Part shown: positions 7,922 to 23,112 of the stretch, piece by piece
Layout: each line of letters starts with the position of its first letter
Numbering within the stretch: the first letter of the stretch is position 1
Origin: Chloroflexota bacterium
Lineage (GTDB): Bacteria > Chloroflexota > Anaerolineae > Aggregatilineales > Phototrophicaceae
Assembly: GCA_016223085.1 (NCBI GenBank)
Contig: JACRPS010000030.1
Location: 1 to 57,612, forward strand
Direction of reading: 5' to 3'
DNA length: 57,612 bases
Translations under genes and position numbers: made by a program
Notes under the pieces: generated by a model
What the model was told of the DNA's origin: nothing
The model's database searches: none
The model's input: the letters and a program-made list of their open reading frames with translations, nothing else

Positions 7922-9796
7922 TCAGCCTTCCAGCAGCAGCGTCGTGCCCGCCGTCAGGTTTTCCAGGCTCACCGCACCACCACGTATCGTAAAATCAGCA
8001 CCGGTAAAAAAGTCGGTCAGCCGCGTGCCGTCGGCATAACCGGCATGTCGCAGCGGCAGTTCCACATACGGCAGCGCCTCCGGCCCGCGATAGCCGACCA
8101 GCAGCAATCGCTGCTGCGGCGACTGGCGCAGGTAGGCGAGCAGCCCGTCCGACGCGGCCACCATCTGGAAGCCGCCCTGCCGCAGCGCGGACGATTGGCG
8201 GCGCAGGGCGATCAGCCGCTGGTAGTGGCCGCGCACGTCGTTGTCCCAGGTGTTTTCATCCCAGCGCATACAGCGGCGGTTGTCGGGGTCAAACAGCCCT
8301 TCCATACCGATTTCGTCACCATAATAGACACATGGCACGCCGGGGAAGGTCAGCAGCAGCGCTGCGCCCAGTTTCAGCAGCGCCGTGTCACCGCCGACGA
8401 TGGACAGGATGCGCGGTGTATCGTGACTGCCAAGCTGGTTAAACTGCTGGCGGGCGACGGCCCAGGGCACGGCAGCGCGGAAGCGCGTCCACTGCTCGCT
8501 GACCGCTTCGGCAGGCAGTGGGTGCGGGTCCAGCCACTCCCGCCCGTGCACAAAGTCGTCCGGCAGGTCCCGCCCACGCAGCCAGTGCCAAAGCGGAATC
8601 GTGAAGCCCTGATAGTTCATCACGGCGTCCAGTTCGTCACCCTGCAAATGGGGCGTGCCGTCAAAGAAGTTTTCGCCAAACAGGTAGACCTCCGGGTTAT
8701 CGGCCTTCACCGCCCGGCGGATACCGCGCCAGATTTTATGGTCAAGCTGCTGCATTCCCTGCCGCGCCGTCATATTCGCCACGTCCAGCCGCCAGCCGTC
8801 AATCCGGTACGGGTCGCGCAGCCAGCGCCGCAACACCGAGTCCGGCGCGCCGTACATCGCTTCGCGCAGGCGTTCGCTGCGGTAATTCAGCTTCGCCAGC
8901 GACCTGTGTCCCAGCCAGCTTTCGTAGTCATCGGGATGGCGGTAGAACGTAAAGTAATCGGCGGTCGGGGCGTGGGGGTCGGCCTGTGCCGCCGTGAACC
9001 AGGTGTGCTTATAGCCGGTATGGTTGGGCGTTACGTCCAGCACCAGCCGCATTCCGGCGCGGTCAAGCGCCTGCCGCAGTTCCACCAGCGCCTCGTTGCC
9101 GCCCAGGTACGGATCAACGGTGTCGTAGTCGGCAGTATCGTAGCGGTGGTTGCTGTAAGCGGTAAAAATTGGATTGAGATACAGCGCGGTCACGCCCAGG
9201 TCGTGCAGATAATCCAGCTTGTGCGTGATGCCCTGCAAATCGCCGCCGTAGAAGTCCAGCCCGCCGCCTTCGTTCCAGTGCAGCGGCGGCGCGCCCCACT
9301 CCCGCAGCGTGGTCGCAAAGCCGCGCTGGTTCGTCCACGCGCCCGGCGGCACGTCGTTGGAGGGGTCGCCGTTATAAAAGCGATCAGGAAAAATCTGGTA
9401 AAACACGGCGTCTTCCAGCCACGACGGCGCGGCGAAATCCGCCAGCAGCTTAAAATCGAACCAGTCAGGGCTGTCGGCGCGGCTGGCGCCCAGCGCGTTA
9501 TACCAGTACGCCCCTTCACTCGACATCACCTTAAAACGATAGGTCGTGCGCGGCATCCTGATCGTTAGTCCGGTTTCCCACCAGGCGGCAACGCTGTCCT
9601 CGCGGACGCGGCGCATGGCCGTCAAATTTTCCTCGCCGTCCGGCGCTGTCCGCAGGAAGACGTGGCGCACTGGCGCTTCCATCGGCACGCGCAGGCGGAT
9701 CGTGACCGTTTCGCCGGAACGTGGCAGCGGGTTCGAGACATACAGTTCCGAGCCATCATGATGCAGCCCGGCAGTCCAATGCAGTTGAGCCAACAT
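7922..9796 (-). CDS. GH13 alpha-glucosidase / cyclomaltodextrinase-like (MalZ/neopullulanase group)
   Basis: This 624-residue cytosolic enzyme (no signal peptide) hydrolyses alpha-1,4 bonds in maltodextrins. An N-terminal CBM34-like beta domain (about 1-120) precedes the catalytic barrel. The conserved GH13 regions are DVTPNHTG (254-261), GWRLDVAN with nucleophile D338, FGENFF with acid/base E375, and GSHDTPR with D459. YFTFYRHPDDYESWLGH is typical of the neopullulanase/MalZ subgroup. It lies downstream of the 4-alpha-glucanotransferase gene on the same strand. That pairing points to cytoplasmic maltodextrin or glycogen-fragment use. The exact specificity (maltodextrin, cyclodextrin or pullulan) cannot be set from sequence. 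Confidence 0.9.
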   Translation of the reverse strand: MLAQLHWTAGLHHDGSELYVSNPLPRSGETVTIRLRVPMEAPVRHVFLRTAPDGEENLTAMRRVREDSVAAWWETGLTIRMPRTTYRFKVMSSEGAYWYNALGASRADSPDWFDFKLLADFAAPSWLEDAVFYQIFPDRFYNGDPSNDVPPGAWTNQRGFATTLREWGAPPLHWNEGGGLDFYGGDLQGITHKLDYLHDLGVTALYLNPIFTAYSNHRYDTADYDTVDPYLGGNEALVELRQALDRAGMRLVLDVTPNHTGYKHTWFTAAQADPHAPTADYFTFYRHPDDYESWLGHRSLAKLNYRSERLREAMYGAPDSVLRRWLRDPYRIDGWRLDVANMTARQGMQQLDHKIWRGIRRAVKADNPEVYLFGENFFDGTPHLQGDELDAVMNYQGFTIPLWHWLRGRDLPDDFVHGREWLDPHPLPAEAVSEQWTRFRAAVPWAVARQQFNQLGSHDTPRILSIVGGDTALLKLGAALLLTFPGVPCVYYGDEIGMEGLFDPDNRRCMRWDENTWDNDVRGHYQRLIALRRQSSALRQGGFQMVAASDGLLAYLRQSPQQRLLLVGYRGPEALPYVELPLRHAGYADGTRLTDFFTGADFTIRGGAVSLENLTAGTTLLLEG

Positions 9797-9969
9797 GCTC
9801 TTATTGAAACCTCGCGTTGTGCTGTCAGGCCGCCATGTTACTGGAACTCAGCCGCGAATACCATGCGCGGTTGGCGTAAATCCGGCAGCGCCGTTTTACG
9901 GGAGTCCCGTTGGGAGCAGTGGGCAGGCTGAAGGTCGCCGGGATGATGGGGAGATATGGGGAAGTTACG

Positions 9970-16674: not shown

Positions 16675-16725
16675 GCCGGACGTTGCAAACGTCCGGCTGG
16701 TATCCTCAAACCCGCTGAATGGGTT
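16675..16725 (-). repeat. Two-hairpin dispersed module (GCCGGACGTT type)
   Basis: GCCGGACGTT and AACGTCCGGC (16675-16697) form a 10-bp stem. AACCC and GGGTT (16709-16725) form a second stem around GCTGAAT. The same two stems recur inverted at 55463-55515. Confidence 0.6.
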
Positions 16726-16898
16726 CGTTCCCGCCGTTCCGCCGGTCAGTCCCTTCAGCCGTGACTTTTGTCCCCGGCAATTCTACAAATCTCATAATAG
16801 GGCATGAAACCATCGCCTTGCTACCGCCTCTGCAGCCGGATTATACTGGAGGGACTTTCACACATAACCGCATTAATATGCCTTTTGGAGTATCCCTT

Positions 16899-18242
16899 AT
16901 GTTGACCAAGACCACCACCCGTCCCGGCCCGCAGGGGCAGGCCATTATCGCGCGCGACTCCGCCATCATGACTGGCGCGCTAACGCCCCGCTATCCGTTT
17001 GTGATCGAGCGCGGCTCCGGGTCACGGGTCTGGGATGTGGATGGTAATGAATACGTGGACTTCGCAGCAGGCATTGCTGTCACCGCTACCGGCCACTGCC
17101 ACCCGAAAGTGGTGCAGGCCATCACCGAACAGGCGCAGAAGTTCATTCATATCGCTGGCACCGATTATTATTACGATGTCCAGGTGCGCGTGGCCGAAAA
17201 ACTGGCCGAGATCGCGCCGTTTGACGAACCCGCCAAGGTGTTTCTTACCAATTCTGGCACGGAAGCGGTCGAAGGCGCGATCAAAGTAGCGCGCTGGTAC
17301 ACCGACCGCAAGCACATCATCGCCTTCTACGGTGCGTTTCATGGCCGAACGCTGGGGTCGCTGTCGCTGACGGCCAGTAAAGTTGTCCAGCGCGATGGCT
17401 TTTTCCCACTGCTTCCGGGCGTCCATCACGTGCCGTATAACAACCCCTATCGCTGTATGCACGGGCGGCGCGAAGCCGACTGCCGCGATCACTGCATCTG
17501 CGCCGACTACATCACCGATGTGCTGTTTAAGCGGGTGGTACCGGCGGACAGCGTGGCGGCGATCATCCTCGAACCGATGCAGGGCGAAGGCGGCTACCTC
17601 GTGCCGGACAAACGCTTTGTGCAGCAGTTGCGCGACATCTGCGACCAGCACGGTATTCTGATGATTGTGGACGAAATCCAGTCCGGCATCGGGCGCACCG
17701 GCAAATGGTGGGCCATCGAACACTTTGGCGTGCAGCCCGACATCGTATGTTCTGCCAAAGGCTTAGCCAGCGGCATGCCGCTGGGCGCGGTCATCGCTCG
17801 CAGCCACGTGATGAGCTGGCCGCCCGGCGCGCACGGCTCCACGTTTGGCGGCAATCCGATCTCGTGCGCCGCCGCGCTGGCGACGCTGGAACTGGTCGAA
17901 ACCGGCTACATGCAGAACGCCGCCGAACAGGGGCAGTATATTAAGGACGCGCTGGAAGAAATGATGGATTACCATCCGGCACTGAAGTATGGCCGCGTGG
18001 ACGGCCTGGGGCTAATGGTTGGCGCGGAACTGGTGCTGGACGAAAAACGCACCCCGGCGAAGGAACTCCGTAATCGCGTCGAGCGGATCTGCCTGGAAAA
18101 CGGCCTGCTGCTGCTGGGCTGCGGCGAAAACACACTGCGCTTCTGCCCGGCGCTGATGATCGAGCGCGAGACGGTGCAGCAGGGGCTTGAGTTATTTGAT
18201 CTATCGCTGTCACAGGCCGAACGCGAGGCCGGGCTGACGTAA
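16899..18242 (+). CDS. Class III aminotransferase (acetylornithine / 4-aminobutyrate type)
   Basis: This 447-residue PLP enzyme transfers an amino group from an omega- or alpha-amino donor to a keto acid. D258 in MIVDEIQSGIGRTG contacts the PLP ring, and K287 in VCSAKGLASGMPLGA forms the Schiff base; SGTEAVEGAIKVAR (119-132) binds phosphate. The insertion at 186-201 contains four cysteines (CMHGRREADCRDHCIC). I recall a comparable cysteine-bearing stretch in archaeal members, so it may be a family feature. GGAG lies about 9 nt before the chosen ATG. The exact substrate (GABA, ornithine or other) cannot be assigned; no arginine or GABA pathway gene is adjacent. Confidence 0.85.
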   Translation: MLTKTTTRPGPQGQAIIARDSAIMTGALTPRYPFVIERGSGSRVWDVDGNEYVDFAAGIAVTATGHCHPKVVQAITEQAQKFIHIAGTDYYYDVQVRVAEKLAEIAPFDEPAKVFLTNSGTEAVEGAIKVARWYTDRKHIIAFYGAFHGRTLGSLSLTASKVVQRDGFFPLLPGVHHVPYNNPYRCMHGRREADCRDHCICADYITDVLFKRVVPADSVAAIILEPMQGEGGYLVPDKRFVQQLRDICDQHGILMIVDEIQSGIGRTGKWWAIEHFGVQPDIVCSAKGLASGMPLGAVIARSHVMSWPPGAHGSTFGGNPISCAAALATLELVETGYMQNAAEQGQYIKDALEEMMDYHPALKYGRVDGLGLMVGAELVLDEKRTPAKELRNRVERICLENGLLLLGCGENTLRFCPALMIERETVQQGLELFDLSLSQAEREAGLT

Positions 18243-18265
18243 ACTATGGTTAATCTGCCTGTCCT

Positions 18266-18293
18266 GTAGGGACGAGGCATGCCCCGTCCCTAT
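18266..18293. repeat. Dispersed palindrome, GGGACGAGGC arms
   Basis: GTAGGGACGAGGCA and TGCCCCGTCCCTAT form a nearly complete 14-bp stem with one mismatch. It lies in the convergent gap between the aminotransferase and the LEG1-like gene. Confidence 0.7.
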
Positions 18294-18304
18294 GGCTAGT
18301 TTCC

Positions 18305-19279
18305 CTACACCGCCAGCATGTACCGTAACAGCTTGCGTCGCTCATTCCGGTTCTTTGGGGAGGGATTGAAGGTCGCGTCGAGCATCGGCAGCACTGCATC
18401 CCGTGCCTGCCGGGTACGCATGGCGCGTTGCCACAGCCACAGGTTAAAGCGATAACGCAGCCGGGACTGCCGCGTTAGACCGAGGATACTGCGCACATTC
18501 AGATTCACCTGATCGTCCATATCGGCAATGTGTCCAGGTATGTCGTCTTCGGTGAGCATTCTTTCCGGCAGTGTTCCCATGCCGTGTTCGAGCATAAAGA
18601 CCAGGTCGGTTCGCCAGGCTGCCGCGCCGAGGAAGTCCACCATCCGAATCCACCCGATCAGGAAATCCAGCTCGCTGCGAGACGCCCGCTGCCTGCCTAA
18701 CGTGCGAATGCCGGCTTCAGCAGCCGTCAGACTGCGGTGGTGCGCCTGCCACAGTTCGAACCTCAGCGGTTCAAGATCGTCACCCGGTTCAATCCGCTGC
18801 ATCAACGCAAAAAACGCCTGCCATGCTTGTACTGCTTCCCGCAAGTCTGCCGGAATCTGGAAGGAGTCATCCTGGCTGCTACAAGGATATTCAACGGCAC
18901 TGCTGGAATAGGGCGGCAGAATTTCCATCGCTGGAACGAGGCCAGCTTGCATGGCGGCGATGAGCGGAATCACGCTTAGCGTATAATTGCCATAGCCCCA
19001 CATACTGCTGGGGTCAATCCGTCCGTCTGGCGTGTTTGCCAGTCGTAGCCGCCCCGAACGCCACTGCCAGTGATACTGGAACACATATCCCCAGAAGACG
19101 TTCAGTTCGTTCTCCTGGCCGCAGATGCCGCGTGGGTTCGTCACCTCAATCAGCCGTTTGTACACGGCCAGCCGCTGCTGGTAATCGAAGGGGTCAACCA
19201 TCCCGGTCAACTCTGGCAGCGCCGACCACTGTGGATAAAATTCCAGTTTGACCAGCCGTTCGGAGTAGGTCGTGTCCAT
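18305..19279 (-). CDS. LEG1-family-like protein
   Basis: This 324-residue protein without a clear signal peptide or membrane segment matches, in order, the conserved features I recall from the vertebrate LEG1 (C6orf58) family. They are DPFDYQQRLAVYK (29-41), GQENELNVFWG (54-64), QYHWQWRSGRL (68-78), a serine/tryptophan stretch leading to ILPP (120-123), LWQAHHRSL (176-184), MVDFLGAAAWRTDL (213-226) and LPERMLTEDDIPGHIADM (237-254). The biochemical role of LEG1 proteins is not established; in fish and mammals they are secreted. Here the protein would be cytosolic. It is encoded alongside a multi-pass membrane protein upstream on the same strand. The call rests on remembered family sequence. 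Confidence 0.65.
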   Translation of the reverse strand: MDTTYSERLVKLEFYPQWSALPELTGMVDPFDYQQRLAVYKRLIEVTNPRGICGQENELNVFWGYVFQYHWQWRSGRLRLANTPDGRIDPSSMWGYGNYTLSVIPLIAAMQAGLVPAMEILPPYSSSAVEYPCSSQDDSFQIPADLREAVQAWQAFFALMQRIEPGDDLEPLRFELWQAHHRSLTAAEAGIRTLGRQRASRSELDFLIGWIRMVDFLGAAAWRTDLVFMLEHGMGTLPERMLTEDDIPGHIADMDDQVNLNVRSILGLTRQSRLRYRFNLWLWQRAMRTRQARDAVLPMLDATFNPSPKNRNERRKLLRYMLAV

Positions 19280-19373
19280 GTGCCTGCTTCCTCACCCTGT
19301 CAGTAACCTGAATGGATTACGCTCAGGAAGCGTTTTTGGATTTTGTTTGTGGCATATAAGCGCAGTCCAGCAC

Positions 19374-20219
19374 CTAACCGGCGCTTACAACTGGCTGGGA
19401 CACGCCTGTTGCCCGTCGCTGCCACAGGCGCGTACGATGGTCAAACAGCAGATAATACACTCCGACCAGACTGCCGCTGACGAGCACAAACACAAAGATG
19501 GTGAGACTGGTGCGGTGTTCGGGGCGAACCGTCTCAAATAAAGCGACATAGGGGAAGAACAGCACCAGGGCGTAGATGATAAAACCGAGCAACTGACCGG
19601 CGGCATACGGCCACCTGGGGTTCAAAAAACCGTACAGGAAATAAGCTGCGGCCCCCCAGAAGGCCCACCCATACATCACTGATGTCTGCGGCGTAAGCCG
19701 CCAGGGGAAGATGGTTGGCGCTTTGGTCAGCAATGCATAGCCGGCGACCAGCAGCGCGATCACAAACAGGCCCATTGTGAGTCGCACGACTCTCGGCATC
19801 GGTTGATTATTTTTGAAGGGGAACTTTCTGCTGAACCATAACACGGCCAGTGCCGCCGGGAGTGACAGGAAACAGATAATTGCCCCGACCAGCGGGCGCG
19901 GATTGCGACTGCTGATGGTGTAGCTCTGAAGCATAAACAAGCCCCACCCCAGTAGCGTCACGATCACATCCAGCGTGATCGGCACGGCGGCGCAGATTTC
20001 ACCGGTTACGCCCATCCAGATCAAGGGCACGGCAAACGCTGCAAGGACGGATGAAATGAACAGATTCGACAGGCCGGACAAACTGCTGCTGTATCCGGAC
20101 CAGGGCCACAGCGCGGCAGCCGGCGGCCAACGAAAATAAAAGGCGGCAGCAAGAATCATAAAACCGATACCAGTTATCACCTGAGCAACACGAATCACGT
20201 TCACATACCGGGTTATCAT
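19374..20219 (-). CDS. Multi-pass membrane protein of unknown function
   Basis: This 281-residue integral membrane protein has about seven or eight hydrophobic segments. The first follows MITRYVNVIRVAQVITGIGF, and the last lies before the basic tail DHRTRLWQRRATG. I do not recognise a family or catalytic motif. The start at 20219 places AGGAG about 8 nt upstream (the site overlaps a preceding ATG two codons earlier). A longer frame from 20291 is not supported. It lies upstream of the LEG1-like gene on the same strand with a gap of about 95 bp, so the two may be co-transcribed. Confidence 0.7.
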   Translation of the reverse strand: MITRYVNVIRVAQVITGIGFMILAAAFYFRWPPAAALWPWSGYSSSLSGLSNLFISSVLAAFAVPLIWMGVTGEICAAVPITLDVIVTLLGWGLFMLQSYTISSRNPRPLVGAIICFLSLPAALAVLWFSRKFPFKNNQPMPRVVRLTMGLFVIALLVAGYALLTKAPTIFPWRLTPQTSVMYGWAFWGAAAYFLYGFLNPRWPYAAGQLLGFIIYALVLFFPYVALFETVRPEHRTSLTIFVFVLVSGSLVGVYYLLFDHRTRLWQRRATGVSQPVVSAG

Positions 20220-20812
20220 CACCATCTCCTGACACACCACTAACAACCACCTGCACAACCAGTTCAGGTATAACGACAAGATTGTGTTCAAGGACGCTCA
20301 ACCACAGACGACGATGCTGGTTTTGGCGCTCACACAAAATGAAACAAAAATCGTATTCAACAGTATAGGAAAAAGTTTAAAATGAGTCATCATCTGTAAG
20401 AAGGAAAGACAGAATATTGCTAAACTGTTTTTACAGGTTGGCTACCAGGAAGTACTGAACGTTGATGAATTATTCCCCAGGTGTGTGGATTCGCGCCGCT
20501 TTCCGTTACAATGTATCTGTCACCCCGAATTGATAACATGAGAACGGGATTAAAAACCCTGCATGGTGCGGGCACAAATCCTGGTCAAGTGGCTAGTGTG
20601 ACCGGGGATAAGGTGGAGGATAATAACGGCATCCAGTAACTTCCCGGACAACAGCAGCGCCATAATCGGTGCTGGGAAATGGGCAGCCACCCATGAGCGC
20701 AATGATCGGTGTGATGAACAGCAACTTTGCGGCTTACCCTGCGTATACCAGGGTAAGCACCAGATCAGCCGATTTCTGGCCTGGGGCCATAGACGATGTT
20801 GGGAACGTAAGC
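20220..20812. other. Long AT-richer intergenic region before the ECF sigma gene
   Basis: No protein gene is convincing in these 590 bp. The region separates the divergent membrane-protein and sigma genes and must contain both promoters. A TACAAT-like box is present near 20507. A strong 10-bp inverted repeat lies at 20732-20758. A 32-codon ATG frame near 20539 has no good ribosome site. Confidence 0.55.
20732..20758 (+). promoter_or_regulatory. 10-bp inverted repeat in the leader of the ECF sigma gene
   Basis: GCTTACCCTG and CAGGGTAAGC are perfect arms around a 7-nt centre CGTATAC, 54 bp before the sigma ATG. There is no T-run. It could be an operator or an RNA hairpin controlling the sigma operon. 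It does not belong to the GTAGGG palindrome family. Confidence 0.45.
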
Positions 20813-21415
20813 ATGTCTGATCCGACAAACTTGGACTGGGTGAACGCCGCGCTGGCGGGCGATCAGGATGCCTTCGCCGAGATTGTGTACGCCCACCAGG
20901 ACGCCGTTTACAACCTGTGTTACCGGATGCTGGGGGAACGCACCGAGGCTGAAGACGCCGCCCAGGAAGCCTTCCTCCGCGCCTACATGAATCTCCAACG
21001 CTATGACCCCGCCCGTTCGTTTAAGACCTGGCTGTTGAGCATTGCGTCCAACTACTGCATTGACCGGCTGCGCCGCCGCCGCTTGCAGTGGCTGTCGCTG
21101 GACGACGAGCCAACCGAAGACAGCCTGGCCTTAAGCAGCGACGAGCCGGAACCGGAAGATGTGGCGCTGCTGCGCGAACACAGCAAGGCCGTCCAGGCGC
21201 TGCTGCACGAACTCAGCCCGGAATATCGGGCGGTCGTGGTGCTGCGCTACTGGTACGACTATTCCTATGCCGAAATCGCGGACATCATGGACACCACCGA
21301 AAGCGCCGTCAAGAGCCGCCTGTTCCGCGCCCGGCAGACGCTGGCTGATCGGCTGAATTCCCGCAGCAGCAAATCCACCGCTCGACCGATCAATCCGTTA
21401 CTGGAGAGTTATTGA
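20813..21415 (+). CDS. ECF (extracytoplasmic function) sigma-70 factor
   Basis: This 200-residue alternative sigma factor has only regions 2 and 4. Region 2 runs through YNLCYRMLGERTEAEDAAQ, then AFLRAYMNLQRYDPARSFKT and WLLSIASNYCIDRLRRR. Region 4 has LSPEYRAVVVLRYWYDYSYA and EIADIMDTTESAVKSRLFRA, the -35-binding helix-turn-helix. The linker is acidic (DDEPTEDSLALSSDEPEPED). The ATG at 20813 gives a family-length protein; a longer frame upstream encodes unrelated residues. The stop overlaps the start of the anti-sigma-like gene (TGATG), so the two are translationally coupled. Confidence 0.92.
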   Translation: MSDPTNLDWVNAALAGDQDAFAEIVYAHQDAVYNLCYRMLGERTEAEDAAQEAFLRAYMNLQRYDPARSFKTWLLSIASNYCIDRLRRRRLQWLSLDDEPTEDSLALSSDEPEPEDVALLREHSKAVQALLHELSPEYRAVVVLRYWYDYSYAEIADIMDTTESAVKSRLFRARQTLADRLNSRSSKSTARPINPLLESY

Positions 21416-21975
21416 TGGCGAACGAACAGCACCGGCGGCTGATGCAGGACGCGCTGGACGAACAACTGACGCCGGAAGCGCAGCATGAACTGCACCAGCA
21501 GTTGAGCGCCGAACCCGATGCCGCCGCCGAGTTTGACCGGCTGCGCCGCGTGGAACAACTGCTGCGCAGCGCACCGATGGAGCGCGCGCCGCAGCGGCTG
21601 GCGCTCAGCATCATGGCGCGGCTGGCGGAAACGCTGCAATCGAAGGAGCAGTTGGCGCACACGTCCGGGCTGGCGCTGGCGCTGGCTTTGGCGCTGGTAG
21701 TGGTCGTGGCGCTGCCATTGCTGGTCGCCTCGGCCTGGCTGTTCCTCAGCGCCGTCAGCAGCGCCGCCGCGTTGAGCAGCCTGATTCAGAGCATCGTCAC
21801 CCTGCTGACGCTGCTGATGGGTATGATGGAAGCCTTCATTCAGCAGGCGCAGACGGTTGTTGCCGATTATCCGCAGGCGCCGGCGCTGCTGATCGTGCTG
21901 GTGCCGGTGGCGCTGGTGGGTCTGATGCGCTACCTGACGACTCAACCGCCGGACGACTCCGATGCAGAAGTGTAG
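21415..21975 (+). CDS. Membrane-anchored anti-sigma-like protein
   Basis: The 186-residue product has a soluble N-terminal part of about 80 residues (HRRLMQDALDEQLTPEAQHE, RRVEQLLRSAPMERAPQRLA). Two or three hydrophobic helices follow (about 85-120, 125-145 and 155-172). Position, coupling to the ECF sigma gene and this layout fit an anti-sigma factor that holds the sigma at the membrane. The usual zinc-binding HxxxCxxC motif is absent, so it would belong to the non-zinc class. GGAGAG lies 8 nt upstream. The assignment is by context. Confidence 0.75.
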   Translation: MANEQHRRLMQDALDEQLTPEAQHELHQQLSAEPDAAAEFDRLRRVEQLLRSAPMERAPQRLALSIMARLAETLQSKEQLAHTSGLALALALALVVVVALPLLVASAWLFLSAVSSAAALSSLIQSIVTLLTLLMGMMEAFIQQAQTVVADYPQAPALLIVLVPVALVGLMRYLTTQPPDDSDAEV

Positions 21976-21999
21976 GGACACGATAGATCGTGTCCCTAC
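21972..21999. repeat. Dispersed palindrome, GGGACACGAT arms
   Basis: GTAGGGACACGAT and ATCGTGTCCCTAC are perfect 13-bp arms around AG. It begins inside the anti-sigma stop region and ends next to the GAGG ribosome site of the next gene, inside what looks like one operon. Confidence 0.8.
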
Positions 22000-22014
22000 A
22001 GAGGAATGATGACG

Positions 22015-23112
22015 ATGGTACACCGTCGCAACCTGTTGCTTTTTGGTCTGCTGATCGCCGCCATCCTGCTGCTGGCCGGGGTTGCCCGGCGGCAAACCCT
22101 GCCCGCGAGCGTCACTCCTCCGCAAAATATCATTATCACGCAGAGCTATGAGCTTACTACCACCGTAGCTGACTCGCTGGTGGTGATCGCCGACAGCATC
22201 CGTCTCAACGAGGGCAGCCGCGTCCGGGGTGATGCGGCGCTGGTCGGGCGTGGACTCGTGCGGCTGGAGGGGCAGATTGACGGCAATTTAACGGTGATGA
22301 GCGATGTGCTGGAGATCGGCAAAAGCAGCCGCGTCACTGGCGATGTGGCATTTATGGGCAATCGCATGATCGTCGAGGGCAGGGTGTCCGGTGACATCAG
22401 CGCCTTCGGGCAGGCGCTGGCGCTATCGCCGGCGGCGCCAGTCGGCGGGCGGATTACTGCCTGCGTTGGTGTGCTGGATACAGCCAACATCAGCGCCGAC
22501 CAGCTTCGCCCGTGCCGGGAACAGGAAATGATGGACACGTTCGCACCGCTACGGGCGCTGCGGAACAGCGTTGGCGGCACGGGTATCCCTGCAGCATCAC
22601 TGCTGCGAACCCTGCCGGTCGCGCTGGCGCTGGCGGCAGTCGCTGCGCTGGTGGTCGCAGCGTTTCCGGGCCGCTTCAGCCGGATTGAGGAAGCCGTGCG
22701 GGTGGTGCCGCACGGGCTGGCCCGCACCGGCTGCCTGCTGCTGCTGGTCGCCATCGGCCTTGCTGCCGCGCTGGTCACGGCGCTGGCGGTCGCGCCGCCG
22801 CTAGGACTGGTGCTGCTGCCGGTGGGCGCGCTGCTGGGGCTGGTGCTGCTGGTAATGGGGCTGGTCGGCTGGATTACGCTGGCGCTGGTCCTGGGACGCC
22901 GGCTGCCGCGCGTGCGCGTGCTGCCGCCGCTGATCGCGGTCATTCCGGGCAGTCTGGCGCTGTGCCTGCTGGCCTACGCGTTGGCACTGCTGCCGTTCGG
23001 TATGCTGTTCCTGCTGGCAGGCGGGGCGGCGCTGGCGGCACTCGGCTTGGGCGGGGCTTTCATCACCCGGTTTGGCGCGGCCCGCGCCCGGCGTTACGTC
23101 GCTTCCGGTTAG
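22015..23112 (+). CDS. Bactofilin-like polymer-forming membrane protein
   Basis: This protein of about 365 residues has an N-terminal membrane anchor (about 8-25), then a beta-helical stretch (about 45-150) with the repeating pattern of bactofilins (IRLNEGSRVRGDAALVG, LEGQIDGNLTVMSDVLEIG, SRVTGDVAFMGNRMIVEG, GRVSGDISAFG). A C-terminal domain follows with four to five hydrophobic segments (about 195-360). The combination resembles polymer-forming cytoskeletal proteins fused to a membrane module. The best ATG is 22015, with GAGG 10 nt upstream; ATGs at 22006 and 22009 are alternatives. Its place behind an ECF sigma/anti-sigma pair suggests an envelope-stress or cell-shape role. Confidence 0.8.
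   Translation: MVHRRNLLLFGLLIAAILLLAGVARRQTLPASVTPPQNIIITQSYELTTTVADSLVVIADSIRLNEGSRVRGDAALVGRGLVRLEGQIDGNLTVMSDVLEIGKSSRVTGDVAFMGNRMIVEGRVSGDISAFGQALALSPAAPVGGRITACVGVLDTANISADQLRPCREQEMMDTFAPLRALRNSVGGTGIPAASLLRTLPVALALAAVAALVVAAFPGRFSRIEEAVRVVPHGLARTGCLLLLVAIGLAAALVTALAVAPPLGLVLLPVGALLGLVLLVMGLVGWITLALVLGRRLPRVRVLPPLIAVIPGSLALCLLAYALALLPFGMLFLLAGGAALAALGLGGAFITRFGAARARRYVASG

Follow-up and report, generated by a model that had tools for sequence, protein, structure and literature searches.

What does a LEG1 protein do in a bacterium? LEG1 is reported from vertebrate liver, serum and saliva, and from milk in monotremes, and to our knowledge its biochemistry is unknown. The question is raised by a 57,612-nt contig of a Chloroflexota bacterium (JACRPS010000030.1, hereafter the window, meaning this whole stretch; it is contig C24 of the 37 in the 6.0-Mb assembly GCA_016223085.1), in which an initial annotation, made from the letters alone, had pointed to a relative of animal LEG1 at 18305..19279. 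We find that the gene almost certainly encodes a member of the LEG1 family (Pfam PF05612, formerly DUF781), and the best explanation of the evidence as a whole, which we put forward tentatively, is a LEG1 member that is predicted to fold like MLP, a milk protein of the platypus, and may act as an intracellular enzyme or small-molecule binder. DUF781 proteins have been reported from bacteria (actinomycetes and proteobacteria), a slime mould, a diatom, invertebrates and vertebrates, with only few prokaryotes having them (PMC7060313); the words Chloroflexi, Anaerolin-, enzyme and pocket are absent from the main text of that paper. Among the matches listed in our literature search, which had subscription papers and preprints outside its scope, there was no work on bacterial LEG1 beyond it. 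The Chloroflexota gene adds a bacterial member and a conservation map to an already known family.

Gene model and family membership

The LEG1 gene and its likely start signal are placed as follows.

18305..19279, minus strand: LEG1-family gene, 324 amino acids, ATG start, a single Leg1 domain (Pfam match at residues 17-303)
19287..19295, minus strand: likely ribosome-binding site GTGAGGAAG, read by eye, seven bases 5′ of the LEG1 ATG

The interval of the initial annotation, for which no strand had been given, is a real open frame, here on the minus strand; plus-strand frame 1 over the same bases is interrupted by five stops. All the motifs that it had quoted, from ENELN..WG to LPERML...I.DM, are present in the order given, as ENELNVFWG (residues 56-64), QYHWQWRSGRL (68-78), ILPP (120-123), LWQAHHRSL (176-184) and LPERMLTEDDIPGHIADM (from 237). 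Compared with two other Chloroflexota loci, L004 and L005, the gene differs by 0.247/0.198/0.552 and 0.307/0.248/0.563 per codon position, and this codon-position pattern is as under purifying selection. Promoter-like sites near the gene, two found against 2.1 expected, were not above chance.

The resemblance to LEG1, and the profile search suggested as a check on it, both held up. In Pfam-A the protein matched Leg1 far above chance level, scoring 128.1 bits (E = 5.5e-37) where the curated threshold is 25 bits; the match spans most of the profile (positions 12-311 of 331), and the only other row, DUF4951 at E 0.06, fell below its cut-off; NCBIfam gave no match up to E = 10. A sequence search of the PDB matched platypus MLP at E = 5e-9, with a sole other row at E 2.2, and a 26-sequence profile (A1) brought MLP to 1.8e-22 and nothing further up to E = 10. 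At E ≤ 1e-3 the protein matched 137 database proteins, its own entry counted; all 120 among the matches listed carry Leg1 as a precomputed domain, and several bear the NCBI name 'Leg1-related protein'.

Phototrophicaceae and Anaerolineae metagenome-assembled genomes supply the nearest named proteins. The named LEG1 proteins of Chloroflexota (P0015, P0019, P0021, P0023, P0037, L004 and L005) are 58-65% identical and of similar length, with gene neighbours that differ from those of the window in L004 and L005, the two contigs read. The actinobacterial 'Leg1-related proteins' (Pseudonocardiaceae, Nocardiaceae and others) are 39-45% identical in 28 of 29 named loci, with 52% over a partial match in L038; they share the fully conserved residues of the window protein, and in many of them the loop around residues 243-250 is shorter. 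MLP (PDB 4v00, 4v3j and 6b4m), at 19-21% identity, differs from the window protein by its seven Cys, its longer loops, its NNT sequon and an N-terminus that resembles a signal peptide, and it lacks an R212/D215 helix motif that the window protein has.

Conserved residues, predicted fold and possible function

We aligned 158 rows, made up of 35 loci, 2 monotremes and 121 other database proteins (the window's own counted); with the monotremes set aside, 51 columns reach at least 95% conservation. Those in which both monotremes keep the residue are W18, F31, R36, N60, W63, W71, R77, W94, A109, D168, W177, A179, H180, E203, T224, P238, D246, W283, M287 and R293, and nine of them (R36, W63, W71, R77, W94, A109, W177, H180 and E203) are without exception. 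Distant proteobacterial and myxobacterial rows retain R36, W63, W71, R77, W94, W177, H180, E203 and T224, with N60 changed to His in two of them. We drew up the list R36, W63, W71, R77, W94, W177, H180 and E203, which is not a published definition, to describe what bacteria and monotremes share, and the window protein has all eight. In columns 203 to 225 the monotremes keep 2 of 14 such residues (E203 and T224), versus 18 of 37 elsewhere (Fisher p = 0.03, for a comparison chosen after the data were seen).

The fold predicted for the window protein is mostly helical and matches the solved MLP structure, the platypus LEG1 homologue, and on this model the two proteins very probably share a fold. 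The suggestion in the initial annotation of an apparently cytosolic homologue agrees with what we observe: N-terminal hydrophobicity is 0.58 in the window protein versus 2.4 in both monotremes, so that by simple hydropathy it has no signal-like N-terminus. The N-glycosylation site near N..WG is likewise missing, with ENE where platypus has NNT (zebrafish N70 was not aligned). From the absence of a signal-like start a cytosolic place is likely.

The invariant His, Glu and Arg residues, taken with the Trp set, suggest a ligand or active site, and as judged from conservation an enzyme or ligand binder is a possible, if still doubtful, role for the window protein. On this proposal, it would act inside the cell, with R36, R77, H180, E203 and T224 together with W63, W71, W94 and W177, the residues common to bacteria and monotremes, lining one buried site. 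A second set, lost in monotremes (Q68, Q72, N98, W210, R212, D215, D225, R285 and R288), would share that site. The site may accommodate a small ligand that is polar and perhaps anionic, and H180 and E203 are candidates for the acid-base residues. Monotreme MLP would then have kept the scaffold and part of the site and lost the R212/D215 helix motif, and the secreted form may have given up or altered the reaction.

Several points weigh against this proposal. The invariant residues could be structural, and neither a fusion nor a known enzyme fold indicates a reaction for the LEG1 protein. The neighbour genes of LEG1 vary between lineages. MLP is the only solved relative, and we know of no reaction for it; moreover, only 20 of the 51 conserved columns are kept in both monotremes, so that little can be learned about the bacterial biochemistry from platypus. 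Many of the 158 distinct rows are closely related, so that conservation counts are not independent, and the N-terminus was assessed by simple hydropathy, not by SignalP or another signal-peptide predictor.

Another reading is a cytosolic scaffold or regulatory protein: conservation would then serve to maintain the fold and a protein-protein surface, without catalysis, and animal LEG1, for which FGFR3 binding is reported in zebrafish, would have grown out of that role. We consider this rather unlikely. Trp-rich conservation can be structural and no enzyme fold was recognised for the window protein, and FGFR3 binding with increased Erk activity has been reported for zebrafish Leg1a (PMC4764323). 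Vertebrate LEG1a/C6orf58 and zebrafish Leg1a and Leg1b belong to the same Pfam family according to the literature (outside monotremes none was aligned here), but in contrast to the probably cytosolic window protein they are reported as secreted, with glycosylation in zebrafish and roles in liver development (PMC3153479, PMC4764323). FGFR3 binding by the secreted zebrafish protein is glycosylation-dependent (PMC3153479, PMC4764323) and requires N-glycosylation at N70 (PMC4764323), and where MLP has its NNT sequon the window protein has, as noted, ENE. Furthermore, the charged residues R36, R77, H180 and E203 are exceptionless from distant bacteria to monotremes, which would be more than a changing partner surface keeps.

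We keep the enzyme or small-molecule binder as the preferred reading. Its boldest extension, which we regard as unlikely, is that bacterial LEG1 proteins would form an unrecognised cytosolic enzyme class with R36, R77, H180 and E203 at the active site, and that animals would have taken the gene from bacteria and added a signal peptide, the secreted form losing part of the site in monotremes. A small bacterial relative without a signal-like N-terminus would be a simple handle, suited to production in E. coli and to a ligand screen, and with its fold predicted confidently and its invariant His, Glu, Arg and Trp residues few in number the function of the LEG1 fold becomes a bench question.

Spread of the family and the variable stretch

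One scan of a species-level genome collection gave 35 LEG1 loci, 29 in Actinomycetota (mostly Pseudonocardiaceae and Nocardiaceae by title), 3 in Pseudomonadota, 2 in Chloroflexota and 1 in Myxococcota. Around the window's genome the family is rare: of 298 genomes sampled from the class and 400 from the phylum, in overlapping samples, one each time had PF05612, and that one is the window's own; these samples understate the spread of LEG1, because named Anaerolineae and Phototrophicaceae LEG1 proteins exist. A protein search of 16 other same-genus genomes found no LEG1 at E ≤ 0.001. Two matches in the same taxonomic family, spanning 65 and 24 residues and scoring about 20 bits (E 2e-4 and 9e-4), were taken as chance.

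A tree built from 50 of the 158 aligned rows places the window protein beside P0002 and P0003 (support 99/91 and 98/93), which at 79 and 74% identity are its closest relatives overall. The named actinobacterial rows form a separate clade, one block with two proteobacterial rows beside it, and several inner branches are weak. For the two monotremes the branch length is 4.3 + 1.7 changes per column, and their place among the bacteria is not trustworthy. Searches for other animals returned only the two monotremes and P0123, which looks bacterial. We also observed that L014, titled Rhodococcus rhodnii NRRL B-16535, has a LEG1 gene and much of a neighbourhood in common with two Kibdelosporangium genomes (L023 and L028), so its label may be wrong, and that Amycolatopsis bullii has two LEG1 genes on different contigs (L035 and L017), the L035 copy on a longer branch.

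Within the window, the LEG1 gene lies in a stretch that is missing from relatives of the same genus. The features concerned, including one further open reading frame (ORF) and a gene for an extracytoplasmic function (ECF) sigma factor, are listed here.

16719..18242, plus strand: class-III aminotransferase gene, left flank; adjoins the sigma gene in three relatives
18237..20536, no strand: variable stretch that three same-genus relatives lack; contains both LEG1 and the hydrophobic ORF
19374..20219, minus strand: hydrophobic ORF, no Pfam family found; upstream of LEG1, 94 bases before it
20669..21415, plus strand: gene for the ECF sigma factor, on the right flank; its counterparts in the three relatives are 83-84% identical

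DNA homology to the three relatives ends near 18236 and restarts near 20537, and the 2.3-kb stretch between has a G+C content of 0.548 versus 0.605 for the window. At this site the relatives have about 130 replacing bases in G005 and G006 and about 355 in G007; the aminotransferase gene (91-94% identity over the 337-419 residues compared) is separated from the start of the sigma gene by about 490 bases in G007 and about 245 in the other two, with no LEG1 or hydrophobic ORF between. These three are the informative ones among 12 same-genus sigma loci compared, as the other nine have no aminotransferase within the approximately 1.5 kb compared on each side. The rarity of LEG1 favours a gain in the window's line rather than a loss in the relatives, two possibilities that the data do not separate. 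The hydrophobic ORF starts at an ATG at 20219, or possibly at a TTG at 20291; it has relatives in 6 of 40 other genomes (34-47% identity over the matched stretches); at the cut-off applied, the 35 LEG1 loci contain none. On the right flank, at 20669-23112, three consecutive ORFs encode the ECF sigma factor, a small protein that is possibly its anti-sigma factor, and a bactofilin-like protein, and the sigma gene and the next ORF are adjacent in 12 of 12 same-genus loci compared.

A patchy gene within a stretch missing from three relatives would also suit an antimicrobial or competition protein, the more so as MLP is reported to be antibacterial against Staphylococcus aureus and Enterococcus faecalis (PMC4834066, PMC7319036). 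This is very unlikely for the window protein, which has no signal-like N-terminus; no export or immunity family stands among the recurrent neighbour families shown, and the anti-phage defence library PADLOC gave no match (0 families up to E = 0.01). PHROGs, searched for phage proteins, likewise gave 0 families up to E = 0.01. A stretch that bacteria conserve strongly is largely missing from the monotreme protein, so the antibacterial role of the latter is not necessarily that of the ancestor.

Gene neighbourhoods of bacterial LEG1

We compared the neighbourhoods of the 35 named loci and the window, with genes called by a codon-position G+C heuristic rather than a gene finder; these calls are wrong at least at L024, where a plus-strand frame encoding a short-chain dehydrogenase domain stops shortly ahead of LEG1. 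ORF clusters spanning three or more loci numbered 41 (40 listed), and apart from LEG1 and its antisense frames most were confined to genomes of close relatives. Three, each present in five loci, extend over wider lineages, namely zinc-type dehydrogenases (cluster 3, 3 of 5 members scanned), short-chain dehydrogenases (cluster 4, 6 of 6) and cytochrome P450 (cluster 5, 5 of 6), all common families with no fixed position relative to LEG1. A Pfam scan of 119 ORFs within two called genes of LEG1, with ORFs above 700 amino acids dropped, matched 116 families; among the 25 listed, P450 and MarR were commonest (4 of 119 each), followed at 3 of 119 each by methyltransferase, alpha/beta hydrolase, MPAB_Lcp_cat and xylose-isomerase-like families. 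The neighbour survey proposed in the initial annotation as a route to function gave no consistent clue.

The least probable of the alternatives, a terpenoid-cyclase-like or other isoprenoid enzyme, is suggested by weak structural echoes of isoprenoid synthases and by P450 and a terpene synthase-P450 fusion near some actinobacterial copies, and is in our view highly improbable, since the low Z of the structural matches may reflect merely a common arrangement, no Pfam terpene family matched up to E = 10, and P450, short-chain dehydrogenase and zinc-dehydrogenase genes are common in actinobacteria, their recurrence not being set against a background.

A gene of the MPAB_Lcp_cat family (rubber oxygenase or mpaB type) adjoins LEG1 in L011, L026, L027 and L030 (Lentzea and Saccharothrix), around 8600-9900 and in two orientations; because this is limited to one clade we give it no weight. 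In Saccharothrix yanglingensis, a terpene synthase domain joined to a cytochrome P450 domain is encoded just downstream of LEG1 (L030:11993-14191).
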